Source of the DNA: an uncultured Kordiimonas sp.
GTDB taxonomy: Bacteria; Pseudomonadota; Alphaproteobacteria; Sphingomonadales; Kordiimonadaceae
Reading direction: 5' to 3'
Assembly (NCBI GenBank): GCA_947503575.1
Contig: CANNDZ010000001.1
Coordinates: 744,001-808,000 of the forward strand
DNA: 64,000 nucleotides
Of the stretch, positions 40,722 through 52,700 are shown one piece after another (the first letter of the stretch is position 1; each line of letters opens with the position of its first letter). The notes under the pieces were generated by a model. The model saw only the letters and a program-made list of their open reading frames with translations. It ran no database searches and was not told the DNA's origin. A program made the position numbers and the translations under genes.

Positions 40722-41753
40722 TTACCGCGCTTTGGTGTGATCCGCGGACAACAGGCTTGCTCCAATAAGGGCGGCCTCTGGATCCGCAATAAGCCAAACC
40801 GGAATGTTGGCGATATAGTCCTCCATCGGCGGTTTATCCAAAAAGTGTTGGACTAGATCGCTTTTATTTACGAAATCAGCAATCTTTGGCAAAATACCAC
40901 CCCCAAGATACACGCCGCCAGTTGCACCTTGTGTCAGGGCCACATCAGCAGCAACGCCCCCCAGCATATTACAGAAAACCGAGAGCGTATCCCGGCATGC
41001 CTGATCGCTGCCTTCGGTCGCTATCTGACTGATGGTGCTGGGTTCATAGTTGAGCGGTGTAATGCCATTGAGGCTGCATATTGCCCGGTAAATACGTTGA
41101 ATACCAATTCCCGAAATCAGGGTTTCTACTGTCACACGCCCCATACTTTTTTGGATTTCGTTGAACACGGCTGTTTCCAGGTCGCCAGCAGGCACAAAAC
41201 TGGCGTGCCCGCCTTCTGTCGGTATGATGTTCACTTCATGGTTTCGGACAAACACCTGTGACAGTCCAAAGCCAGTGCCAGGGCCCATCACAGCTATAGG
41301 CCCGCTATTGCCGCCCTTTTCGGTGCCATGCAGTTGCAGCAGATCGCTTGTATCCAGCGCAGTTACAGATCGAGCGAGGGCTTGAAAATCATTTGCGATC
41401 AGCGTCTGGGATACAGCCAGACTATGGCAAATATCGTCGCCGTTGATATCCCACCCCAAGTTGGTCAGATAGGCGTGGTTGCCGCGCACTGGACCAGCAA
41501 CCGCCAAACAGGCTGCCGTAATGGTGTTGCTGCCATTGTCCTGCATATAGTGTTGGACCAGATCGATAGGATTACTGAAATCCGCACAGGGGTATGTTCT
41601 GTAACCATGGATTGCTATGGTATCCTGAACGGTGTTTTGGTCGGTCTCAGTTGCGACGCATGACCTTGCGGGTCCAACCGATGCCAGGGCAAAACGCGCG
41701 TTTGTACCGCCGATATCTGCCACAAGGATTGGTGTATTCTTATCGTCTGCGAT
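40722..41753 (-). CDS. glk: glucokinase
   Basis: ILVADIGGTNARFALAS, IANDFQALARSV, VMGPGTGFGLS, PTEGGHASF, GGVYLGGGI; ORF opens at 41855 but the 5' part holds a palindromic operator. Confidence 0.9.
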   Translation of the reverse strand: MADDKNTPILVADIGGTNARFALASVGPARSCVATETDQNTVQDTIAIHGYRTYPCADFSNPIDLVQHYMQDNGSNTITAACLAVAGPVRGNHAYLTNLGWDINGDDICHSLAVSQTLIANDFQALARSVTALDTSDLLQLHGTEKGGNSGPIAVMGPGTGFGLSQVFVRNHEVNIIPTEGGHASFVPAGDLETAVFNEIQKSMGRVTVETLISGIGIQRIYRAICSLNGITPLNYEPSTISQIATEGSDQACRDTLSVFCNMLGGVAADVALTQGATGGVYLGGGILPKIADFVNKSDLVQHFLDKPPMEDYIANIPVWLIADPEAALIGASLLSADHTKAR

Positions 41754-41832
41754 CATATTCAGCCGCCTTAAGTCAGGCGTCTTCCCACCGGTTAGCTGGA
41801 TTGATTGACTTGGTTGTGATCGATAACTCTCA

Positions 41833-41848
41833 TTGACAGCGCTGTCAA
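41833..41848. promoter_or_regulatory. candidate LacI-family operator, 16-bp perfect palindrome
   Basis: TTGACAGCGCTGTCAA in the glk/lacI divergent region. Confidence 0.65.
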
Positions 41849-41992
41849 CAGTCATATACTAGCCCATCACTCACTATAGCAGCGAGTTCTTTTGGTTTGC
41901 CAACAAAAACCGGTGGAACAATAATTTACCGGTATTGGACCGCTCCGGCGGAAGTGTGTGGTAGCCTCAGGCAACAAAGGGCAAAAAAGGTT

Positions 41993-43069
41993 ATGGCACC
42001 GGCGGTAACAATCAATGACGTGGCCAAGTTGGCGGGCGTATCAATAAAAACGGTGTCCCGTGTGGTTAACCGTGAACCCAATGTGCGTCAGCATACCCGC
42101 GACGCAGTGCAGAAAGCCATTCAATCCTTGAATTATAAACCCAGTCTTGCGGCGCGCGGGCTGGCGGGTGGCCGTTCGTTTCTGGTCGGGTTGATGTTTG
42201 ATAACGCCAGCGACAGTTTTCTTGTTGATCTGCAGCGCGGTATCTTGCGGATATGCCGAGACCATCATTATGGGCTGGCATTGTGCCCTGCTTCCCGGGC
42301 CAGCGATAGAACCGAGGACTTGATGCTGTGGGTTACATCTACACAGCCTGATGGTATTGTTTTGACGCCGCCGTTGTCGGATGACCGCGATTTGGTGGAC
42401 CGTCTTCTGGCGGCGGGTGTTCAATTTGTCTCGGTATCATCTGCAGGCACGGGTTCTGGCCCAGCCGTCTATATTGACGAGGCACATGCCGCACGGGCCA
42501 TGGCAGAACATCTTATCGCATCCGGCTACCGCGATATCGGGTTTATTAAAGGCCCGGCAGAGCATGCTTGTAGTGAATTGCGCTATCGTGGTTTTATTGA
42601 GGCTATGCAAGCGGCTAACCTGCCGGTTAATCCGGACTGGATACAGGTCGGTTCTTTTGATTTTGAGTCTGGGCTTGATGCAGCAAAAAAGATATTAGGA
42701 TCGAACAAAAACCAGGGACAATCGCGGCGTCCGCAGGCCATTTTTGCCAGCAATGATGATATGGCTGCCGGTGTTATGCATGCGGCATATCAGGATGGGC
42801 TCAGTGTGCCGGATGATCTGGCTGTCGCCGGGTTTGATGACACCCCTATTTCGCGGCAGTTTTGGCCCAGTTTATCGACTGTGCGCCAACCAATTGAAAA
42901 AATCGGTGAGCATGCAGCGGGCCTTCTGATGAACTGTATCGCTCCCGGCACCGCAATGATCAACCGGACTGACACGTCGACGTCATCCGATACTAGTATA
43001 GTCTTGCCATATGAATTGATGGTGCGTGGCTCGACACAGCCAGCAAAACCACAGCCAGCAAAACCCTAG
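41993..43069 (+). CDS. LacI family transcriptional regulator
   Basis: VTINDVAKLAGVSIKTVSRVVNREPNVRQHTRDAVQKAIQSLNYKPSLAARGLAGGRS. Confidence 0.93.
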   Translation: MAPAVTINDVAKLAGVSIKTVSRVVNREPNVRQHTRDAVQKAIQSLNYKPSLAARGLAGGRSFLVGLMFDNASDSFLVDLQRGILRICRDHHYGLALCPASRASDRTEDLMLWVTSTQPDGIVLTPPLSDDRDLVDRLLAAGVQFVSVSSAGTGSGPAVYIDEAHAARAMAEHLIASGYRDIGFIKGPAEHACSELRYRGFIEAMQAANLPVNPDWIQVGSFDFESGLDAAKKILGSNKNQGQSRRPQAIFASNDDMAAGVMHAAYQDGLSVPDDLAVAGFDDTPISRQFWPSLSTVRQPIEKIGEHAAGLLMNCIAPGTAMINRTDTSTSSDTSIVLPYELMVRGSTQPAKPQPAKP

Positions 43070-43074
43070 TGTGT

Positions 43075-45921
43075 ATGCGCAGAGAACCGGAGTTGAATGA
43101 CATGACGGCCCAACCCAAGAAGAGCGGTGAAGCACGACGCCAGCATCTTTCGGCAGCGCACACTCTTGCCGCTGACCTACTATCCGGGGCACGTGATTTA
43201 CCGGCGCTGGAGCAGCAACTGCTGTCCAGAGCAAAACCCCTGTTGCGTGACAAACTTCAGCATATGACATCCCGCTGGCAAAGTCTTGACCGCCAAGAAA
43301 ATGTTGCCCGGTTATCAGCAGTGATTGACCGGTTGGCGCATGATGCCAATGGCCACTTGTTACCATTTGCAAAGTTTCAGGCGCTGCTTGAAGACGAAAT
43401 GGCGGGGTTTGTCGTCACCGCTCATCCTACATTTTCTTTTTCATCTGATGCATGGCGATGCGCTGGTGCCTTTATGGGTGGCTTGGTGAACGGTGACCAA
43501 GCGGCGGCTGATGCTTTTGACGTGCAGCCCCTGTCGCGAGTTCATCCCGACCGGTCGCCGACACTGCACGAAGAACTGGATTATGCCAATGTTGCGCTTG
43601 GCAATATGCGGCGCAGTTTGCGCACTGTGTACCGTGTGGCTTTTGACCGTGCAGCAGACCTTTACCCTGACCAGTACCGCGCGCTCAGGCCGCGCCTTGC
43701 CACTATCGCCAGTTGGGTTGGTTTCGACCTGGATGGCAGGACCGACATCAACTGGTCACTGGGTCTGTTGTTCCGTTACCGGACGGCAACCGCTGGTCTT
43801 GCCCTGTGCCAAACCGCGGTCGATGCTCTTAACGTGTCCGCGCCTGATACCGCCGTCCATATAGGCGCTGTTCGCGATGGCTTTGCCGAACTGGCAGACT
43901 GTTTCAAAAAAGGCGAGCTGGCACTTGCGTCCTATCAGGATCAGGATGGGTCAATTGCGGACTTCAACCGCTTAAGCGTTGAGAACCGCACCGCCAAGGA
44001 AGTAGCGCGCGACAAGATTAATGCAGCGCTAGAGGCATTGCTTGCACTGCCACTGGATGCAGCGGATTGGCGGGAAGTTGCGCTGTTATCGACAGAGTGG
44101 CATTCGGTGGGGCTGGGGCTATCACATATTCATTTTCGTCTGAATGCAGCCCAGTTGCATAATGCCATGGGGCCGGAAATCCACCTGACCCGTGCGCCAG
44201 ATGAAAGTGCCATGCGCCGCCATTATCTGGCAGCGATTAGCGAAAAACTGGAAACTGTCGAGCCGCAATCAATTCATTACGGCATGTTGGCAGCAGAACG
44301 CACGACCGCCAAGCGCGTGTTTATGATGGCGGCTCAATTCCGCAAGCATTTTGATGCGGCGACGCGCATACGTATGCTGGTGGCAGAGTCTGATACACCG
44401 TTTACGTTGCTGGCTGCGCTTTATTACGCCAAACTTTTTGGGGTTGATGACTATGTCGAAATTTCGCCGTTGTTTGAAACGGCGGTCGGGCTGGAACGTG
44501 GTGACCGCGTGATTGCGGAGCTGATCGATAACCCGCACTTTTTACAGTATATCAAACAACAGGGCCGTTTTTGCCTTCAGCTTGGCTTTTCAGATTCTGG
44601 TCGTTACATCGGCCAACCCGCGGCGGGTTTGGCCATAGAGCGGTTTAAGCTGCGCCTTGTGCGTCTTTGGGAAGCCCGGGGACTGGGCGACATACAGCTT
44701 TTATTTTTTGATACGCACGGCGAGTCTATCGGGCGCGGCGCTCACCCCGAAGACCTGAAAAGTCGCTTTCTTTATACGCAGCCGCCACGGGTGCGGCAGG
44801 CGCTGTCGGCCCTTGAAAGACCGGAAAAACACGAAGTTAGTTTTCAGGGAGCAGAGGGCTTTTTGTGGTTCCTGAGTGAAGAAACCGCGCTTGCGACGCT
44901 TACAGATTTTCTGGAGGTGCGGTTTGCCAGCTACAATGCTGATGATGATGCGCTATATGCTGAAAAAGGATGGGCGCTCGACTTTTTCCTGACCCTTGTA
45001 GAATATCAAAATCATCTGACCGATGATCCTGGGTATATACGGTTGATCGACTCCATCGGGCGTAGCCTGTTGTTTCCAACCGGCTCGCGGTCAATGCGGC
45101 GCCAAAGTGGCGGCGCGGTGCATCAAAGGCTGGAACGAATCTCCCAGATACGGGCAATCCCGCATAATGCTGTTTTGCAGCAGCTTGGATACCTGGCCAA
45201 TTCCTGCGCGGGTGTGGGTACAGCAATTGATCGCGCACCAGACAAATTCAATGCCGTGTATTCTCAATCTGACCGGCTTAAAATGGTTACCGGTATGGCA
45301 ATGCAGGCGCTTGCGCGCTCCGATGTCGGAATTATTGAGTCCTATGCAAAATTATTAAGCCCCGGATATTGGCTGGACCGCTGTGATGCGACTGTATCAG
45401 AAGATGCGCGCAGCAACCTCAGGCGACTATCAAGCGTGCTCGAGGGCTTGTTTGACAGTGATGCCATCGACGCCTGCATACGCAATTTGCGGCGGGATGC
45501 GGGCATGATGACCGATAGCATGGCTGAAGACAGCGCGATCCTGTCACCTGCAGTCGAAGGTTTGGACCAAGACCTGTTCGAGTTGCATGAAATGCGTATT
45601 GGACTGATTCAGTTTATTTTCATGAAATCCATGGAAGTGCCCCGTTTTTCCAGCCGGTTCGACTTTTCACTGGAAGAATTGCTTGTGGAATTGCTGCATC
45701 TTGAAGTGCCAGACACCGTGGCGCGATTGCGGGAAATATTTCCGGAAGCCTCTCGTCAGGAAAGCACGGCAAACTACGGTGAGGATGCGTCTTACGAAGG
45801 TGGACGCACATCCGGCTATGCGGATGTCCACCGGAATATTTTTGACCAATTGGATCAAGCCTATGAGCTGGTGCTTGCGCTCAGCGGCTTGATCGCGCTG
45901 AAAGTTGGGGCATTTGGCTAG
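43075..45921 (+). CDS. divergent phosphoenolpyruvate carboxylase-like protein
   Basis: VVTAHPTFS, SWVGFDLDGRTD, LGFSDSGRYIG, THGESIGRGAHP, GSRSMRRQSGG align to PEPC motifs but differ at several motif residues; ORF opens at 43069. Confidence 0.8.
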   Translation: MRREPELNDMTAQPKKSGEARRQHLSAAHTLAADLLSGARDLPALEQQLLSRAKPLLRDKLQHMTSRWQSLDRQENVARLSAVIDRLAHDANGHLLPFAKFQALLEDEMAGFVVTAHPTFSFSSDAWRCAGAFMGGLVNGDQAAADAFDVQPLSRVHPDRSPTLHEELDYANVALGNMRRSLRTVYRVAFDRAADLYPDQYRALRPRLATIASWVGFDLDGRTDINWSLGLLFRYRTATAGLALCQTAVDALNVSAPDTAVHIGAVRDGFAELADCFKKGELALASYQDQDGSIADFNRLSVENRTAKEVARDKINAALEALLALPLDAADWREVALLSTEWHSVGLGLSHIHFRLNAAQLHNAMGPEIHLTRAPDESAMRRHYLAAISEKLETVEPQSIHYGMLAAERTTAKRVFMMAAQFRKHFDAATRIRMLVAESDTPFTLLAALYYAKLFGVDDYVEISPLFETAVGLERGDRVIAELIDNPHFLQYIKQQGRFCLQLGFSDSGRYIGQPAAGLAIERFKLRLVRLWEARGLGDIQLLFFDTHGESIGRGAHPEDLKSRFLYTQPPRVRQALSALERPEKHEVSFQGAEGFLWFLSEETALATLTDFLEVRFASYNADDDALYAEKGWALDFFLTLVEYQNHLTDDPGYIRLIDSIGRSLLFPTGSRSMRRQSGGAVHQRLERISQIRAIPHNAVLQQLGYLANSCAGVGTAIDRAPDKFNAVYSQSDRLKMVTGMAMQALARSDVGIIESYAKLLSPGYWLDRCDATVSEDARSNLRRLSSVLEGLFDSDAIDACIRNLRRDAGMMTDSMAEDSAILSPAVEGLDQDLFELHEMRIGLIQFIFMKSMEVPRFSSRFDFSLEELLVELLHLEVPDTVARLREIFPEASRQESTANYGEDASYEGGRTSGYADVHRNIFDQLDQAYELVLALSGLIALKVGAFG

Positions 45922-45954
45922 CTGTATGCCCCCACCCGTAAAGGAAGCTATTTG

Positions 45955-47433
45955 ATGCAAGAAGCGTTTGATCTGGTAATTTTTGGCGGCACGGGGGACC
46001 TTTCCCGCCGCAAACTGCTGCCTGCGATTTATGCTGGGCTGGTTGCCGGTCGGGTGGATGCCGCATCGCGTATCGTTTTAACGTCCCGCTCTGGTCTTGA
46101 AGGCGACGTTGCCGCTTGGCTCGACGGTATATTTGCAGAGAATGTGCCCGCCTGCGGTGTGGACGCAGCATCCCTAAAACAATTTGCCAACATGGTCACT
46201 GTCATCGAACTTGGCTTAACGGATGGCGGCGAAGATTGGGAAGCGTTGCAGTCGCTGCTTGCCGGCAACAGCGACCGTGCCATTGTGCATTTTCTGGCCG
46301 TGCCACCTTCGGTGTTTACACGCACCTGTAAATTGCTGGGTGATTATGGCTTAAACGACACCAATGCGCGTGTTGTACTGGAAAAACCGCTCGGGCATGA
46401 TCTGGCGTCAGCGCAGGCGATCAATGCTGAAGTAGGGCGTTGGTTTGACGAAAGCCAGACCTTCCGTATTGACCATTATCTTGGCAAAGAAGCGGTCCAG
46501 AACCTTTTGGCGCTTCGGTTTTCCAACATTATGTTCGAGCAGCTTTGGAGCGCACGAACCATTGACCATATCCAGATCACCATCGCTGAGGACTTAGGCG
46601 TTCAGGGGCGCGGTGCTTTCTATGAAGGCACAGGTGCCATGCGCGACATGGTGCAAAACCATTTGTTGCAACTGCTATGTCTGGTAGCAATGGAGCCACC
46701 CGCCCGGCTTGATGCAGATAGCATCCGCGAGGAAAAGCTTAAAGTTCTCAAGTCGTTGAAGAAATATACGGCAGACGAAGCGGAACAAAACATTGTGCGC
46801 GCGCAATATAGTGGCGGTGCAATGGCAGGCGAGGTTGTTGGCTCTTATGTCGATGATCTTGACCTTGACGGCGACAGCACAACAGAAACCTTTGTAGCGC
46901 TTAAGACCTATATTCAAAACTGGCGCTGGGCGGATGTGCCATTTTACCTGCGTACCGGCAAACGATTGCCAGATCGGTTTGCGGAAATTGTCATTCAGTT
47001 CAAGCCGATACCTCATTCACCGCACGAGGGGTGGGGCAAGCATATCAATCCCAACCGGTTTATCATCAGGTTGCAGCCAGAAGATCATTTGGCGCTGCGT
47101 ATGATGGTTAAAAATCATGGATCAGCGACAGAAGCGCTGAGGGAAGTGGAAATGAACCTGGATGCCGTTGGTGACGACGCGACCCGTCTGGGCCCTTACC
47201 TGCGGCTGATATTGGATGCTGCGCGCGGTGACCAGAGCCTGTTTGTACACCGCGAGGAGGTTGAGCACGCTTGGCGCTGGGTTGATCATATCGTCGAGCA
47301 TTGGCAAGCATCCGATGCACCGTTGAAGACCTATCAGGCAGGCACATGGGGGCCATATGAAGTCCATCACCTGATGGTCAGGGATGACCGCCAGTGGTTC
47401 CATGAAACAAGCGGGCGGCTCAGTAATGGCTAA
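45955..47433 (+). CDS. zwf: glucose-6-phosphate 1-dehydrogenase
   Basis: VIFGGTGDLSRRKLLPAIY; FRIDHYLGKEAVQNLLALRFSN; LQLLCLVAMEPP. Confidence 0.97.
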   Translation: MQEAFDLVIFGGTGDLSRRKLLPAIYAGLVAGRVDAASRIVLTSRSGLEGDVAAWLDGIFAENVPACGVDAASLKQFANMVTVIELGLTDGGEDWEALQSLLAGNSDRAIVHFLAVPPSVFTRTCKLLGDYGLNDTNARVVLEKPLGHDLASAQAINAEVGRWFDESQTFRIDHYLGKEAVQNLLALRFSNIMFEQLWSARTIDHIQITIAEDLGVQGRGAFYEGTGAMRDMVQNHLLQLLCLVAMEPPARLDADSIREEKLKVLKSLKKYTADEAEQNIVRAQYSGGAMAGEVVGSYVDDLDLDGDSTTETFVALKTYIQNWRWADVPFYLRTGKRLPDRFAEIVIQFKPIPHSPHEGWGKHINPNRFIIRLQPEDHLALRMMVKNHGSATEALREVEMNLDAVGDDATRLGPYLRLILDAARGDQSLFVHREEVEHAWRWVDHIVEHWQASDAPLKTYQAGTWGPYEVHHLMVRDDRQWFHETSGRLSNG

Positions 47434-48121
47434 CTGGCGACAGTTTGAAGACCGGGATGCCCTTGTGACGGCGCTTCGCGCTGGCATCGAAAGCCAGCTA
47501 CAGGCCGCTGTTGAAACGCGGGGTCAGGCATCTTGGGCTGTGTCTGGTGGTTCGACACCTAAACCGCTGTTTGAAGCAATGCAGCAGTCGCCCCTTGAGT
47601 GGCGGCACATCGACGTGGCCCTAGTCGACGAACGCTGGGTGCCTTTTGATCATCCACGTTCTAATGAGGTTTTTGTGGCTCAAAACCTGCTGGCAGCCCG
47701 CGCGGCGGATGCCCGTCTTGTGGGCATGAAAACCGGTCATGACACGGCAGCAGATGCCACCGAAGAGGTAAACACGCGCTACGGCGCCATTGCTCAACCC
47801 TTCGATAGCGTGCTTCTGGGTGTGGGGCTGGACGGCCACACTGCCTCGCTGTTCCCGGGTGCTGAGGGCCTCGAAGCGGCTTTTGCTGCAGGTGCACCAA
47901 CCTGTGTGGCGCTAACGGCCAAAAAGTCAGCTGTAACAGGCGACGAAGTAGACCGTATGAGCTTGTCTGCGGACGCCATTGCGCAGGCGCGCCATGTGCT
48001 TGTGATGATCACGGGTCATGAAAAAAAAGCAATGATGGAGCAGGCGCTGGAGCCATCATCCAGCTTGCCCATCGGACGTCTGCACGCGCTGAGACCTTTT
48101 GATATTTACTGGGCCCCCTAG
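47426..48121 (+). CDS. pgl: 6-phosphogluconolactonase
   Basis: WAVSGGSTPKPLFEAM...VALVDERWVPFDHPRSNEVFV...VLLGVGLDGHTASLFPG; overlaps the zwf stop by 8 nt. Confidence 0.95.
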   Translation: MANWRQFEDRDALVTALRAGIESQLQAAVETRGQASWAVSGGSTPKPLFEAMQQSPLEWRHIDVALVDERWVPFDHPRSNEVFVAQNLLAARAADARLVGMKTGHDTAADATEEVNTRYGAIAQPFDSVLLGVGLDGHTASLFPGAEGLEAAFAAGAPTCVALTAKKSAVTGDEVDRMSLSADAIAQARHVLVMITGHEKKAMMEQALEPSSSLPIGRLHALRPFDIYWAP

Positions 48122-48156: not shown

Positions 48157-49959
48157 ATGACCCACCCCAAATTACTTGAAATTACCGAGCGCGTAAAAGC
48201 CCGATCCAAAGACAGCCGCAAGGCTTATATGGCGCGGATTGAGGCCATGCGCGCCGATGGACGCCCTCGCCCGCGTCTGTCATGCGGTAATCTCGCACAC
48301 GCTATTGCCGCGTGTTCTGAAACTGAAAAAGCGCAACTGGCAGCGGAAAATGGCATGGCCAACATTGGCATTGTCAGTGCTTATAATGACATGCTGTCTG
48401 CGCACCAGCCCTATCATGCCAAGCTGGATGACATGAAAAAATACATTGTCGAGGCGGGTGCCGTATCGCAGATGGCGGGCGGCACTCCCGCCATGTGTGA
48501 CGGCGTCACGCAGGGGCAAAACGGTATGGAACTGTCGTTGTTTAGTCGGGATGTGATTGCCTTATCGACAGCCGTTGCCATGACCCACAATGTGTTTGAT
48601 GGTGGTATGCTGTTTGGTATTTGTGATAAAATTGTGCCGGGCCTTCTTATGGGGGCTCTTTCATTCGGTCATCTGCCTTTTGTCTTTGTACCCGCTGGCC
48701 CTATGCCAACGGGTATTTCCAACTCTGAAAAAGTGAAGGTGCGTCAGCAATATGTAACGGGCGAGGTTGGGCGCGCCGAATTGTTGCAAAGTGAATCGCG
48801 CGCTTACCACAGCCCTGGCACCTGCACTTTTTATGGCACCGCCAATTCCAACCAGATGATGCTGGAAATGATGGGCCTGCAACTGCCGGGCAGCAGTTTT
48901 GTAAACCCCACAGACCCGCTTCGGGATGCCCTGGACCGGGCATCTGCAAGAACCATGGTCTCGCTGGCGGCACCCGACCGGAACGTTGGTCTTGCCGACA
49001 TGGTAACCGCAGAATCGATCTTAAACGGTGCAATCGGCTTGCTGGCAACCGGCGGGTCTACCAACCACACCATTCATATCGTTGCGATTGCTGAACGCGC
49101 AGGTATCCAAGTCACCTGGCAGGATTTTGCAGACCTTTCAGAAATCATTCCGCTTCTGGCGCGGGTGTACCCAAATGGACTGGCTGATGTAAACGCTTTC
49201 CATGCGGCGGGCGGTACACCGTTCATCATTCGGGAACTTCTGGGGGCTGGCCTGTTGCACGGCGACATTGAAACGATTTTGGGTAAAGGGTTGCAGCCCT
49301 TTGGTCAGATGCCGTCGCTGGAAGGCGATAGCGCTGTGTGGCATGACCCTGATGCAGACGCGGCAGACCCGATGATTGTTCGGGGTGCATCCGACCCGTT
49401 TCAGGCAACGGGCGGCCTTGCCTTATTGAAAGGGCCCTTGGGCCAGGCTGTGATGAAAACATCTGCTGTTAAGCCAGAACATCGTACTGTTGAAGCGCCC
49501 GCGCTGGTTTTTCAAAATCAGGACGAAATGATGGAGGCCTATAAAGACGGCAAACTGGAGCGCGATTTTGTGGCTGTGATCCGGTTTCAGGGGCCGCGCG
49601 CCAATGGCATGCCGGAACTCCACAAATTAACACCCAGTCTGGGCGTGTTGCAGGACAAGGGCTTTAAGGTTGCTTTGGTGACTGATGGCCGCATGTCTGG
49701 TGCCTCTGGTAAGGTGCCTGCGGCTATCCATGTTTCGCCGGAAGCCGCCATGGGGGGCTTGATCGCCAAAATAGAGGACGGTGACATGATCCGGGTTGAC
49801 CCAGAAGCCGGGCTGCTGGACGTTATGGTGGACAAGGCAACATTGGAGGCGCGGCCAGCATTTGTCAGCACGCCTGAATTACAAACCTATGGCCGTGATT
49901 TATTTGCAGTGATGCGCAACACTGTTTCTACCGCAGACCAGGGCGGTTCAGTATTTTAA
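48157..49959 (+). CDS. edd: phosphogluconate dehydratase
   Basis: [85 protein letters not shown]. Confidence 0.97.
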
Positions 49960-49970
49960 GGGGACAGCTA

Positions 49971-50606
49971 ATGGCAACCGTAACAGCAACAGTAGAAGAA
50001 GTTCTGGGCGCATCCCCCGTCATGCCTGTGTTGGCTTTTCGAAGTGCGGAAGAAGCTGTAGAGGTTTCAAGCGTCTTGTATGACTGTGGTGTGCGCGTGT
50101 TTGAAATTACACTTCGGCACGAAAGCGCGCTGGAGGCGATTAAAGAGGTTAAGGTTGCGCTGCCGGATGACGCGATTGTTGGTGCGGGCACAGTTTTGTC
50201 GCCCGATACGGCGAAACTGGCGCGCAATGCAGGCGCTGTATTTGGTGTGAGCCCCGGCCTGACAAAAGAATTAGGTAGTGCCGTAAGGGCGATGGGCTGG
50301 GCTTTTTTGCCCGGCGTTTCAACCATTTCCGAAGCAATGAGCGCGATGGATATGGGGTTCACTGCCCTAAAGTTTTTCCCGGCTTCTGTTTCGGGTGGGC
50401 CGGGTTTTCTGAAAGCTGCGGCCAGTGTGTTACCGGGCATACAGTTTTGCCCCACTGGCGGGATTTCCGCTGATACAGCACATGAGTATTTGGCTCTTCC
50501 CAATGTGCCGACAGTAGGGGGATCATGGATCACACCCCGAGTTGGCGATGGCACAATTGATCTTGCGGCGACACGCGAACGTGCAACCGCTGCCCTGAAC
50601 TTCTAA
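49971..50606 (+). CDS. eda: 2-dehydro-3-deoxyphosphogluconate aldolase
   Basis: VFEITLRHESALEAIKEV; IVGAGTVLSPD; GFTALKFFPASVSGGPGFLKAAASVLPGIQFCPTGGIS. Confidence 0.95.
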   Translation: MATVTATVEEVLGASPVMPVLAFRSAEEAVEVSSVLYDCGVRVFEITLRHESALEAIKEVKVALPDDAIVGAGTVLSPDTAKLARNAGAVFGVSPGLTKELGSAVRAMGWAFLPGVSTISEAMSAMDMGFTALKFFPASVSGGPGFLKAAASVLPGIQFCPTGGISADTAHEYLALPNVPTVGGSWITPRVGDGTIDLAATRERATAALNF

Positions 50607-50670: not shown

Positions 50671-51216
50671 GTGGGGAGACCGGTTTTGAAAATCATTCAT
50701 GTTGTTTTTGCCCTGTTGCTTGTAATCGCGGGGATTACCATTTTTGTGTTAGCGGGCGACCCCCCGATGGGCGCAACCGGGGTGCCGCACCCAACCATTG
50801 CTGGCCTGTCGATGGGGGGTGACGGTACGGCCAAATTGGCCGAAATTGGCCGTGCGCCCTATTATTTCCAGATAAGCGTTATATTGCTGGCAGGCTCGCT
50901 ACTGTATATGGGTGTGCCCGAACACAGGCGTGACACCATGCTGAAAGCGTGCTTTGCCGCAGGCTTGGCATTTGCCCTTTTCGTTTGGATCATGCTGTGG
51001 GCTGGCTATGAAAGCTATCTTGCTACCGGCGAAACAACGGTAATATTTGGTTTTCCTGCCCCAACGAACTGGATGTTTTGGGGGGTGTGGGGCAGCTTTG
51101 TTGCCTTTGACCTGTTTTATGTTTTTGCTTTCCGCCGCTATTTTTTGCACCCCGATGATGAGGCTGCGTTTGAAGCGTTGGTGCAGGAGCTTGACGCCGA
51201 GCGGGGGACCGACTGA
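50671..51216 (+). CDS. membrane protein co-encoded with the downstream symporter
   Basis: 181 aa, several TM segments; stop/start overlap with the SSS gene; exact start uncertain. Confidence 0.65.
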   Translation: MGRPVLKIIHVVFALLLVIAGITIFVLAGDPPMGATGVPHPTIAGLSMGGDGTAKLAEIGRAPYYFQISVILLAGSLLYMGVPEHRRDTMLKACFAAGLAFALFVWIMLWAGYESYLATGETTVIFGFPAPTNWMFWGVWGSFVAFDLFYVFAFRRYFLHPDDEAAFEALVQELDAERGTD

Positions 51217-52700
51217 TGGAAGAATATCGCCAGCCGATTATTCTGCTTTTTGTCGCCCTTTACATGGTTGCCTGCATATGGGTTGGCCTGTGGGCCATGC
51301 GCCGGACCAAATCCGCCGGGGACTTTTTTGTTGCTGGTCGTGGATTAGGCCCTTGGGTGGTTAGCCTTGCGGTATTCTCCTCCACGCTGTCCGGGTTCGG
51401 GTTCGTTGGCGGACCGGGCCTTGTGTACGCAACGGGCCTCAGTTCGATCTGGATGGCGGTGTGTTCGGCCCTTGGGTTTGCGACGGGGTATTACCTGATC
51501 GCTAAGCGTATCCGCATGATTGCTGAAGTGCGTAACGCCATGTCGTTGCCGGATATTGTGTTTGCGCGTTATGGCAGTGATGCAGCCCGCCTGTTGACCG
51601 CCGGGACCATACTTCTTGGTGTGCTGGGCTATCTGGCAACGCAAATTCTGGCGATGGGTGTGGTGCTACAATCCATCCTGGCGGGCACGGAAATGTTCGC
51701 AAACATCAGCCTGATTGCCAGTATCGCGATTTCTTCTGCCGTCCTGATTTTTTACTGCGTAACCGGCGGTATTGTGGCGTCTGTATATACAGACCTTGTG
51801 CAAGGCATTGTCATGATCATTGCAGGGGCTTTGGTGGTGATCACGGCGGCCAGTGTGTTTGGTGGCGGATTTGCCGAAGCAACAGATATTCTGCTGGCGA
51901 GTGACGGTGAAGATGTGATGCCGTTTGGAACATTAGGGCCTATGGCCTCGCTTTCGTGGTATTTCTTGTTTGGATTGGGCCTTGCGGGCCAACCGCATGT
52001 GGCTACCAAAATGATGATGAACCGCAAACTGTCGGACAATAAGGTTATCCTGCCGATGACCGTGTTCGGTTATGTTATCGCTGCCATGCTGTGGGTGTCT
52101 GTGGGCATTATCATGCGGGCGCTTGTGCTGGGTGATGTGGCCTTGCCGCTGTCGGGTGCTGATGAAGCGGCCCCTGCGTTTCTATCCACCTATGCGCACC
52201 CTGTTTTGGCGGGTGTTGTATTTGCGGGGCTGTTTGCGGCCATTATGTCAACGGCAGACGGTTTCCTGAATATTGGGGCTGCTGCGATTATTCATGATAT
52301 CCCCAAGGCACTGCGCGGTCGCTCGCTCAACAACGAGCTGTTCTGGGCGCGCACAGCAACCATTGTGTTGTCGCTGGTGGCGGCAGCGATTGCGCTATCA
52401 AGCGGGCAATTGATCGCCATTTTGGGCGCGTTTGGTTGGGGTACTTTTGCTGCGGCGCTTGTGCCTGTGGTGCTTATTGGCCTGAACTGGAAGCAGGCGA
52501 GTGCGCGGGCGGCCATCGCTTCCATTACGGTTAGTCTGATCATCAATTTTGCCATCCAGATATTCCAGATCCAGATACCGTACGCCATATCGGGCGGGTT
52601 CCTTGCCATGCTGACATCAATGATTTTATTCATTGGTTTGTCGCTGCTGGAAAAGCCCAAACCGTTGCCAAAAGACATTGATCGGATCATGGAACTGTAA
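51216..52700 (+). CDS. sodium:solute symporter family (SSS) transporter
   Basis: KSAGDFFVAGRGLGPWVVSLAVFSSTLSGFGFVGGPGLVYATG; 13 or so TM segments; MSTADGFLNIGAAAIIHDI. Confidence 0.93.
   Translation: MEEYRQPIILLFVALYMVACIWVGLWAMRRTKSAGDFFVAGRGLGPWVVSLAVFSSTLSGFGFVGGPGLVYATGLSSIWMAVCSALGFATGYYLIAKRIRMIAEVRNAMSLPDIVFARYGSDAARLLTAGTILLGVLGYLATQILAMGVVLQSILAGTEMFANISLIASIAISSAVLIFYCVTGGIVASVYTDLVQGIVMIIAGALVVITAASVFGGGFAEATDILLASDGEDVMPFGTLGPMASLSWYFLFGLGLAGQPHVATKMMMNRKLSDNKVILPMTVFGYVIAAMLWVSVGIIMRALVLGDVALPLSGADEAAPAFLSTYAHPVLAGVVFAGLFAAIMSTADGFLNIGAAAIIHDIPKALRGRSLNNELFWARTATIVLSLVAAAIALSSGQLIAILGAFGWGTFAAALVPVVLIGLNWKQASARAAIASITVSLIINFAIQIFQIQIPYAISGGFLAMLTSMILFIGLSLLEKPKPLPKDIDRIMEL

Follow-up and report, generated by a model that had tools for sequence, protein, structure and literature searches.

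Results

Gene content of the locus

The window, i.e. the whole stretch of 64,000 nucleotides from an uncultured Kordiimonas sp. that was analysed here, contains an Entner-Doudoroff (ED) operon in which a gene for a diverged phosphoenolpyruvate carboxylase (PEPC) homologue follows the regulator gene. The features of the locus are:

40722-41759, minus strand: glk, glucokinase, divergent from the operon; the open reading frame runs to 41855 (profile and ORF scan)
41833-41848, no strand: putative LacI-type operator, perfect 16-bp palindrome TTGACAGCGCTGTCAA, between glk and lacI
41993-43069, plus strand: LacI-family regulator, first gene of the operon; likely ATG at 41993, ORF opens at 41897
43102-45921, plus strand: divergent PEPC (subfamily D), 939 amino acids from the likely ATG (homologue starts, ORF scan, profile match)
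45952-47433, plus strand: zwf, glucose-6-phosphate dehydrogenase (ORF scan, profile match)
47423-48121, plus strand: pgl, 6-phosphogluconolactonase (ORF scan, profile match)
48157-49959, plus strand: edd, 6-phosphogluconate dehydratase (911.6 bits against TIGR01196)
49971-50606, plus strand: eda, KDPG aldolase (ORF scan, profile match)
51216-52700, plus strand: sodium:solute symporter family protein, after the operon and in the same place in L002, L003 and L008

The frame of the PEPC homologue is unbroken from 43069 (GTG) or 43075 (ATG) to 45921 on the plus strand, about 950 codons. Because homologues start near residue 10 of the window protein and a GGAG lies about 9 bases 5' of the ATG at 43102, this ATG is the probable start (939 amino acids); the lacI stop codon lies 32 bases 5' of it. 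A small ORF separates eda from the symporter gene, whose product is a possible candidate for a sugar importer.

Seven related loci (window included) have the palindrome TTGACAGCGCTGTCAA in identical form, in surroundings that have diverged, and a genome-wide search that allowed up to one mismatch gave this single site. It looks like a LacI operator, so that glk and lacI-D-zwf-pgl-edd-eda would form a putative local regulon. The glk frame is probably overlong by 41760-41855, a stretch that contains the operator; the match to the glucokinase domain begins only at residue 44.

A divergent PEPC subfamily

The window protein scores 67.2 bits against the Pfam model PF00311 (PEPcase), above the gathering cut-off of 22.4, and 74.1 bits against the NCBI Ppc equivalog model NF000584, far below its cut-off of 815. 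The PF00311 proteins of 395 sampled alphaproteobacterial genomes were of two kinds: canonical proteins, which score about 500-1100 bits, and divergent proteins, most of which score 35-90 bits. Divergent proteins that are recognised by the window protein are termed D here, and most of them are about 30-40% identical to it. A maximum-likelihood tree separates D, as one clade, from canonical PEPC. Profile-profile comparison of the two (probability 99.8, E 3e-29, 644 columns) confirms, at the level of sequence, that D is a homologue of canonical PEPC. The structure prediction that had been proposed as a check was less informative: an AlphaFold2 model from a 10-sequence alignment of close relatives reached a mean pLDDT of 56, with the active-site loops below 50, and due to the low pLDDT it was not used for pocket geometry. 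Foldseek with this low-confidence model ranked PEPCs top, which is weakly consistent with a common fold.

Retained and altered active-site residues

The work on E. coli and maize PEPC has assigned Glu506 and Asp543 as metal ligands, Arg396, Arg581 and Arg713 as the residues holding the phosphate of phosphoenolpyruvate (PEP), and His138 and Arg587 to the carboxyphosphate/CO2 step, while Lys546 and the region of His579 assist bicarbonate binding. We aligned 70 D and 23 canonical PEPC sequences and use E. coli residue numbers throughout. His138, Arg396, Asp543, Arg699 and Arg713 are retained in all 70 D sequences, and Glu506 and Arg587 in all 69 that are readable at these positions. These seven residues belong to 38 columns that are conserved alike in D and canonical PEPC. 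A further 16 columns are fixed differently, several of them clustered near the HGRGG loop and Lys546. Lys546 and Arg581, both invariant in the 23 canonical sequences, are replaced by Arg (70 of 70) and by His (68 of 69 readable), respectively; Gly583 is Glu or Asp in every readable D sequence, Phe takes the place of Glu141 in 69 of 69, and at His579 we find Asp in 51 sequences and Asn in 17. Of the functional residues, D keeps those of the metal site, His138, Arg587 and two phosphate arginines out of three; the position of Lys546 stays basic, and the loop is rebuilt. D does not conserve Lys773, Arg832 and Asn881 of the aspartate-feedback site, in a C-terminal region where the alignment is weak.

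In the window protein the FHGRGGSxGRGG loop of canonical Ppc reads FDTHGESIGRGA, and the TAHPTE and GYSDSxKDxG signatures of the 23 aligned canonical sequences read TAHPTF and GFSDSGRYIG. Together with SWVGFDLDGRTD, DTHGESIGRGAH, GSRSMRRQSGG and the C-terminal KVGAFG, these are the motif changes listed in the preliminary description, and all of them are in the sequence. Two of its details need revision. The C-terminal RNTG has given way to KVGAFG, but the terminal Gly is retained; and it had allowed for little more than the first catalytic His and one later His/Arg pair, whereas H138, R396, E506, D543, R587, R699 and R713 all align.

Far more divergent PF00311 proteins on very long branches occur in other alphaproteobacterial genomes (L107, L116, L117 and L118) and possibly represent further PEPC-like families; in L107 the positions of His138 and Arg396 fail to align.

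Distribution of D and of other anaplerotic enzymes

D was found in about 30 families of the class survey, in at least 58 of the 395 alphaproteobacterial genomes, and in 26 of 30 Kordiimonadaceae genomes, there with an open frame of about 940 amino acids. A phylum-wide draw of 299 genomes gave 17 matches, all from Alphaproteobacteria, and all five genomes found in this draw of one Methylobacterium genus have D. A D-type gene also lies on a Burkholderia pyrrocinia plasmid (L112, 9728-12520), flanked by genes for an RraA-family protein and for a D-glycerate dehydrogenase, presumably by transfer out of Alphaproteobacteria.

The search of the window genome for a separate canonical ppc, one of the checks suggested beforehand, returned D as its only PF00311 gene, and a pyruvate carboxylase/OadA domain was likewise absent from this genome. 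Most genomes that bear D have no second PEPC homologue. Of 395 genomes, 2 combine D with canonical PEPC or pyruvate carboxylase, compared with 13.8 expected (Fisher 9e-6; kinship ignored). Since 245 of the 395 genomes carry none of the three enzymes, the argument from exclusion is a statistical one. Six families (f2, f16, f51, f98, f105 and f110) hold both genomes with D and genomes with canonical PEPC, as if the two replaced one another within them. Both are kept in G290 and G740; G290 is nearly identical to Methylobacterium bullatum, where D stands beside canonical PEPC.

Among Kordiimonadaceae genomes of at least 90% completeness, 22 have D and edd, two have neither, one has edd only and none has D only (Fisher 0.01); two of the three near-complete genomes without D thus also lack edd. 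We considered that loss of D in this family is compensated by canonical PEPC or pyruvate carboxylase and rejected it, as the same three genomes lack any PEPC or pyruvate carboxylase as well.

In family f27, D is the only kind in 61 of 62 PEPC-positive genomes. One member, G752, has a 16S sequence whose nearest matches are Acetobacter aceti (92.9%), Oecophyllibacter and Formicincola, and we therefore take f27 as Acetobacteraceae.

Gene neighbourhoods of D in other bacteria

The analysis confirmed the order lacI-D-zwf in the window; pgl, edd and eda follow zwf, and glk is transcribed the other way. The survey of synteny and motifs that had been called for found this order again in Kordiimonadaceae relatives, and found the altered motifs conserved in the 70 D sequences. 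Within the same order as the window, one locus has zwf-edd-glk-D (L080) and another has zwf and edd near D (L078). Outside the order Kordiimonadales, a conserved ED context for D was sought and not found. An oxalate locus of Phyllobacterium zundukense has D directly after sucC-sucD. On a Phyllobacterium plasmid (L113, 7636-12595) the sucC-sucD-D run stands beside the oxalate-use genes frc and oxlT, which suggests a glyoxylate/oxalate assimilation module. Two further loci (L053 and L054) have the order sucC-sucD-D, and the sucC product of L053 scores 550 bits against a malate-CoA ligase model, just below the cut-off of 604. The Sphingobium D gene belongs to a gene run that has a second enolase gene (enolase-2) upstream of D. 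Most other D genes have no consistent neighbour. The sucC-sucD, enolase and ED genes elsewhere point to PEP as the substrate and to oxaloacetate or malate as the product.

Discussion

The substitutions in D are real and fixed across a clade of 70 sequences, which argues for a subfamily kept by selection and not for a damaged copy. On the sequence evidence, D is a sharply re-set branch of PEPC that is widespread in Alphaproteobacteria, and its active-site changes do not look like decay. We propose that D is a functional, strongly diverged PEPC which, as the sole PEPC of this bacterium and co-expressed with the ED genes, would refill oxaloacetate; we put the probability of this reading at roughly three in four. 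That carboxylation itself is retained despite the rebuilt loop appears likely to us.

According to this proposal, D would convert PEP and HCO3- to oxaloacetate and Pi. Glu506 and Asp543 would bind the metal, Arg396 and Arg713 would hold the phosphate of PEP, and Arg587 and His138 would handle carboxyphosphate and CO2. Arg510 (K546R) and the DTHGE loop may stand in for HGRGG without loss of carboxylation. In the window bacterium, co-expression of D with the genes for glucose use and the ED pathway would mean that oxaloacetate is refilled while sugar is burned, probably under LacI-type control through the operator at 41833-41848. Due to the loss of the aspartate site, no aspartate feedback is predicted, and control in the window operon would be transcriptional.

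Acetic acid bacteria offer a possible link to measured activity. For Gluconacetobacter xylinus, PEPC activity and a flux from PEP to oxaloacetate have been measured (PMC4047042), and the annotation of Gluconobacter oxydans includes a ppc gene, GOX0102 (PMC6191907). By analogy with the f27 genomes, we infer that the PEPC activity of acetic acid bacteria may be attributable to D, where the presence of D in the measured strain is presumed.

The proposal has to be weighed against other readings of the same residues. An enzyme on the PEPC scaffold could still enolise PEP with the help of the metal and, with its rebuilt loop (K546R, G580T, R581H, G583E, H579D/N), act on a different substrate or acceptor, or convert PEP to pyruvate by hydrolysis. 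Sixteen positions fixed differently, several around the HGRGG loop and Lys546, and one signature shared by all D sequences are typical of a change in specificity, and Methylobacterium keeps D beside canonical PEPC. However, the 38 positions that are the same in both groups include His138, Arg396, Glu506, Asp543, Arg587, Arg699 and Arg713, D is rarely found with canonical PEPC or pyruvate carboxylase, it sits in the ppc slot of sucC-sucD-ppc clusters, and nearly all of the sampled Acetobacteraceae genomes with a PEPC homologue have D alone. We therefore regard a changed reaction as unlikely. A wider formulation, in which D either was neofunctionalised for another acceptor or substrate or carboxylates PEP by a modified mechanism without Lys546 and Arg581, so that a second chemistry on the PEPC fold would have spread in Alphaproteobacteria under the name phosphoenolpyruvate carboxylase, seems rather doubtful to us.

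A catalytically dead regulator that senses PEP or a sugar phosphate and tunes ED flux would explain both the loss of residues invariant in canonical enzymes and the place of D in an ED operon directly behind a LacI regulator. It is very improbable: the metal ligands, the catalytic His and the catalytic Arg residues do not vary among the 70 sequences, D lies mostly outside ED operons beyond Kordiimonadales, and most genomes with D have no other PEPC homologue. The low score against the Ppc equivalog model could also be that of a decaying or chance-conserved paralogue without function, but the frame of about 940 amino acids is conserved in 26 of 30 Kordiimonadaceae, the signature of a single clade extends across the class, and pairwise dN of D genes is 0.14-0.31 (synonymous sites are saturated, and no dN/dS ratio is given for this reason); decay is hardly credible. 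The preliminary description had read the gene as one with an altered active site tied to glucose flux. This much stands, with the substitutions fixed in a 70-sequence clade, the ED operon under a unique and conserved operator, and the joint absence of D and edd. Its suggestion of a regulatory pseudoenzyme finds no support, given the invariant metal ligands, His138 and Arg set, and the genomes in which D seems to replace canonical ppc or, as in most Acetobacteraceae sampled, is the sole PEPC homologue. Another substrate, which it also raised, is disfavoured, as the neighbours make PEP or use oxaloacetate or malate.

Public annotation already labels D-type proteins phosphoenolpyruvate carboxylase. 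In the open-access literature we found no description of a divergent or PEPC-like alphaproteobacterial family, nothing describing D in Kordiimonas or Bartonella, and no mutagenesis of the residues concerned that describes D. If D works as a PEPC, then the enzyme can do without Lys546, Arg581 and the HGRGG loop or accept substitutes for them, and dozens of natural examples put the accepted mechanism to a direct test. Acetic acid bacteria and many other Alphaproteobacteria would then fix anaplerotic CO2 without an aspartate-feedback site, which is relevant to metabolic models and to the engineering of feedback-free PEPC. If D is some other enzyme, there are errors in many genome annotations and flux models. 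As a branch of PEPC that probably still makes oxaloacetate, D shows how far the active site of PEPC can change and yet stay under selection.

Compared with E. coli Ppc (PDB 1FIY/1JQN), a canonical PF00311 enzyme, D shares His138, Arg396, Glu506, Asp543, Arg587, Arg699 and Arg713. Similar length and the terminal Gly are common to D and canonical bacterial PEPC, as is the fold family, to judge from the profile comparison and a low-confidence match of folds. Overall identity to canonical PEPC is only about 15-18%, and K546R, R581H, G580T, G583E, H579D/N, E141F, N256R and D394H are fixed in D. Archaeal-type PEPC (PF14010) has PEPC activity without the full canonical signature; D differs from it in matching PF00311, with no match to PF14010 in the Pfam scan. 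The closest parallel in gene order is the serine-cycle-like sucC-sucD-ppc cluster on a Paracoccaceae plasmid (L115), in which a canonical ppc fills the slot that D occupies in Phyllobacterium and in L053 and L054. The PEPC of this cluster is canonical, whereas the D proteins carry the altered signature.
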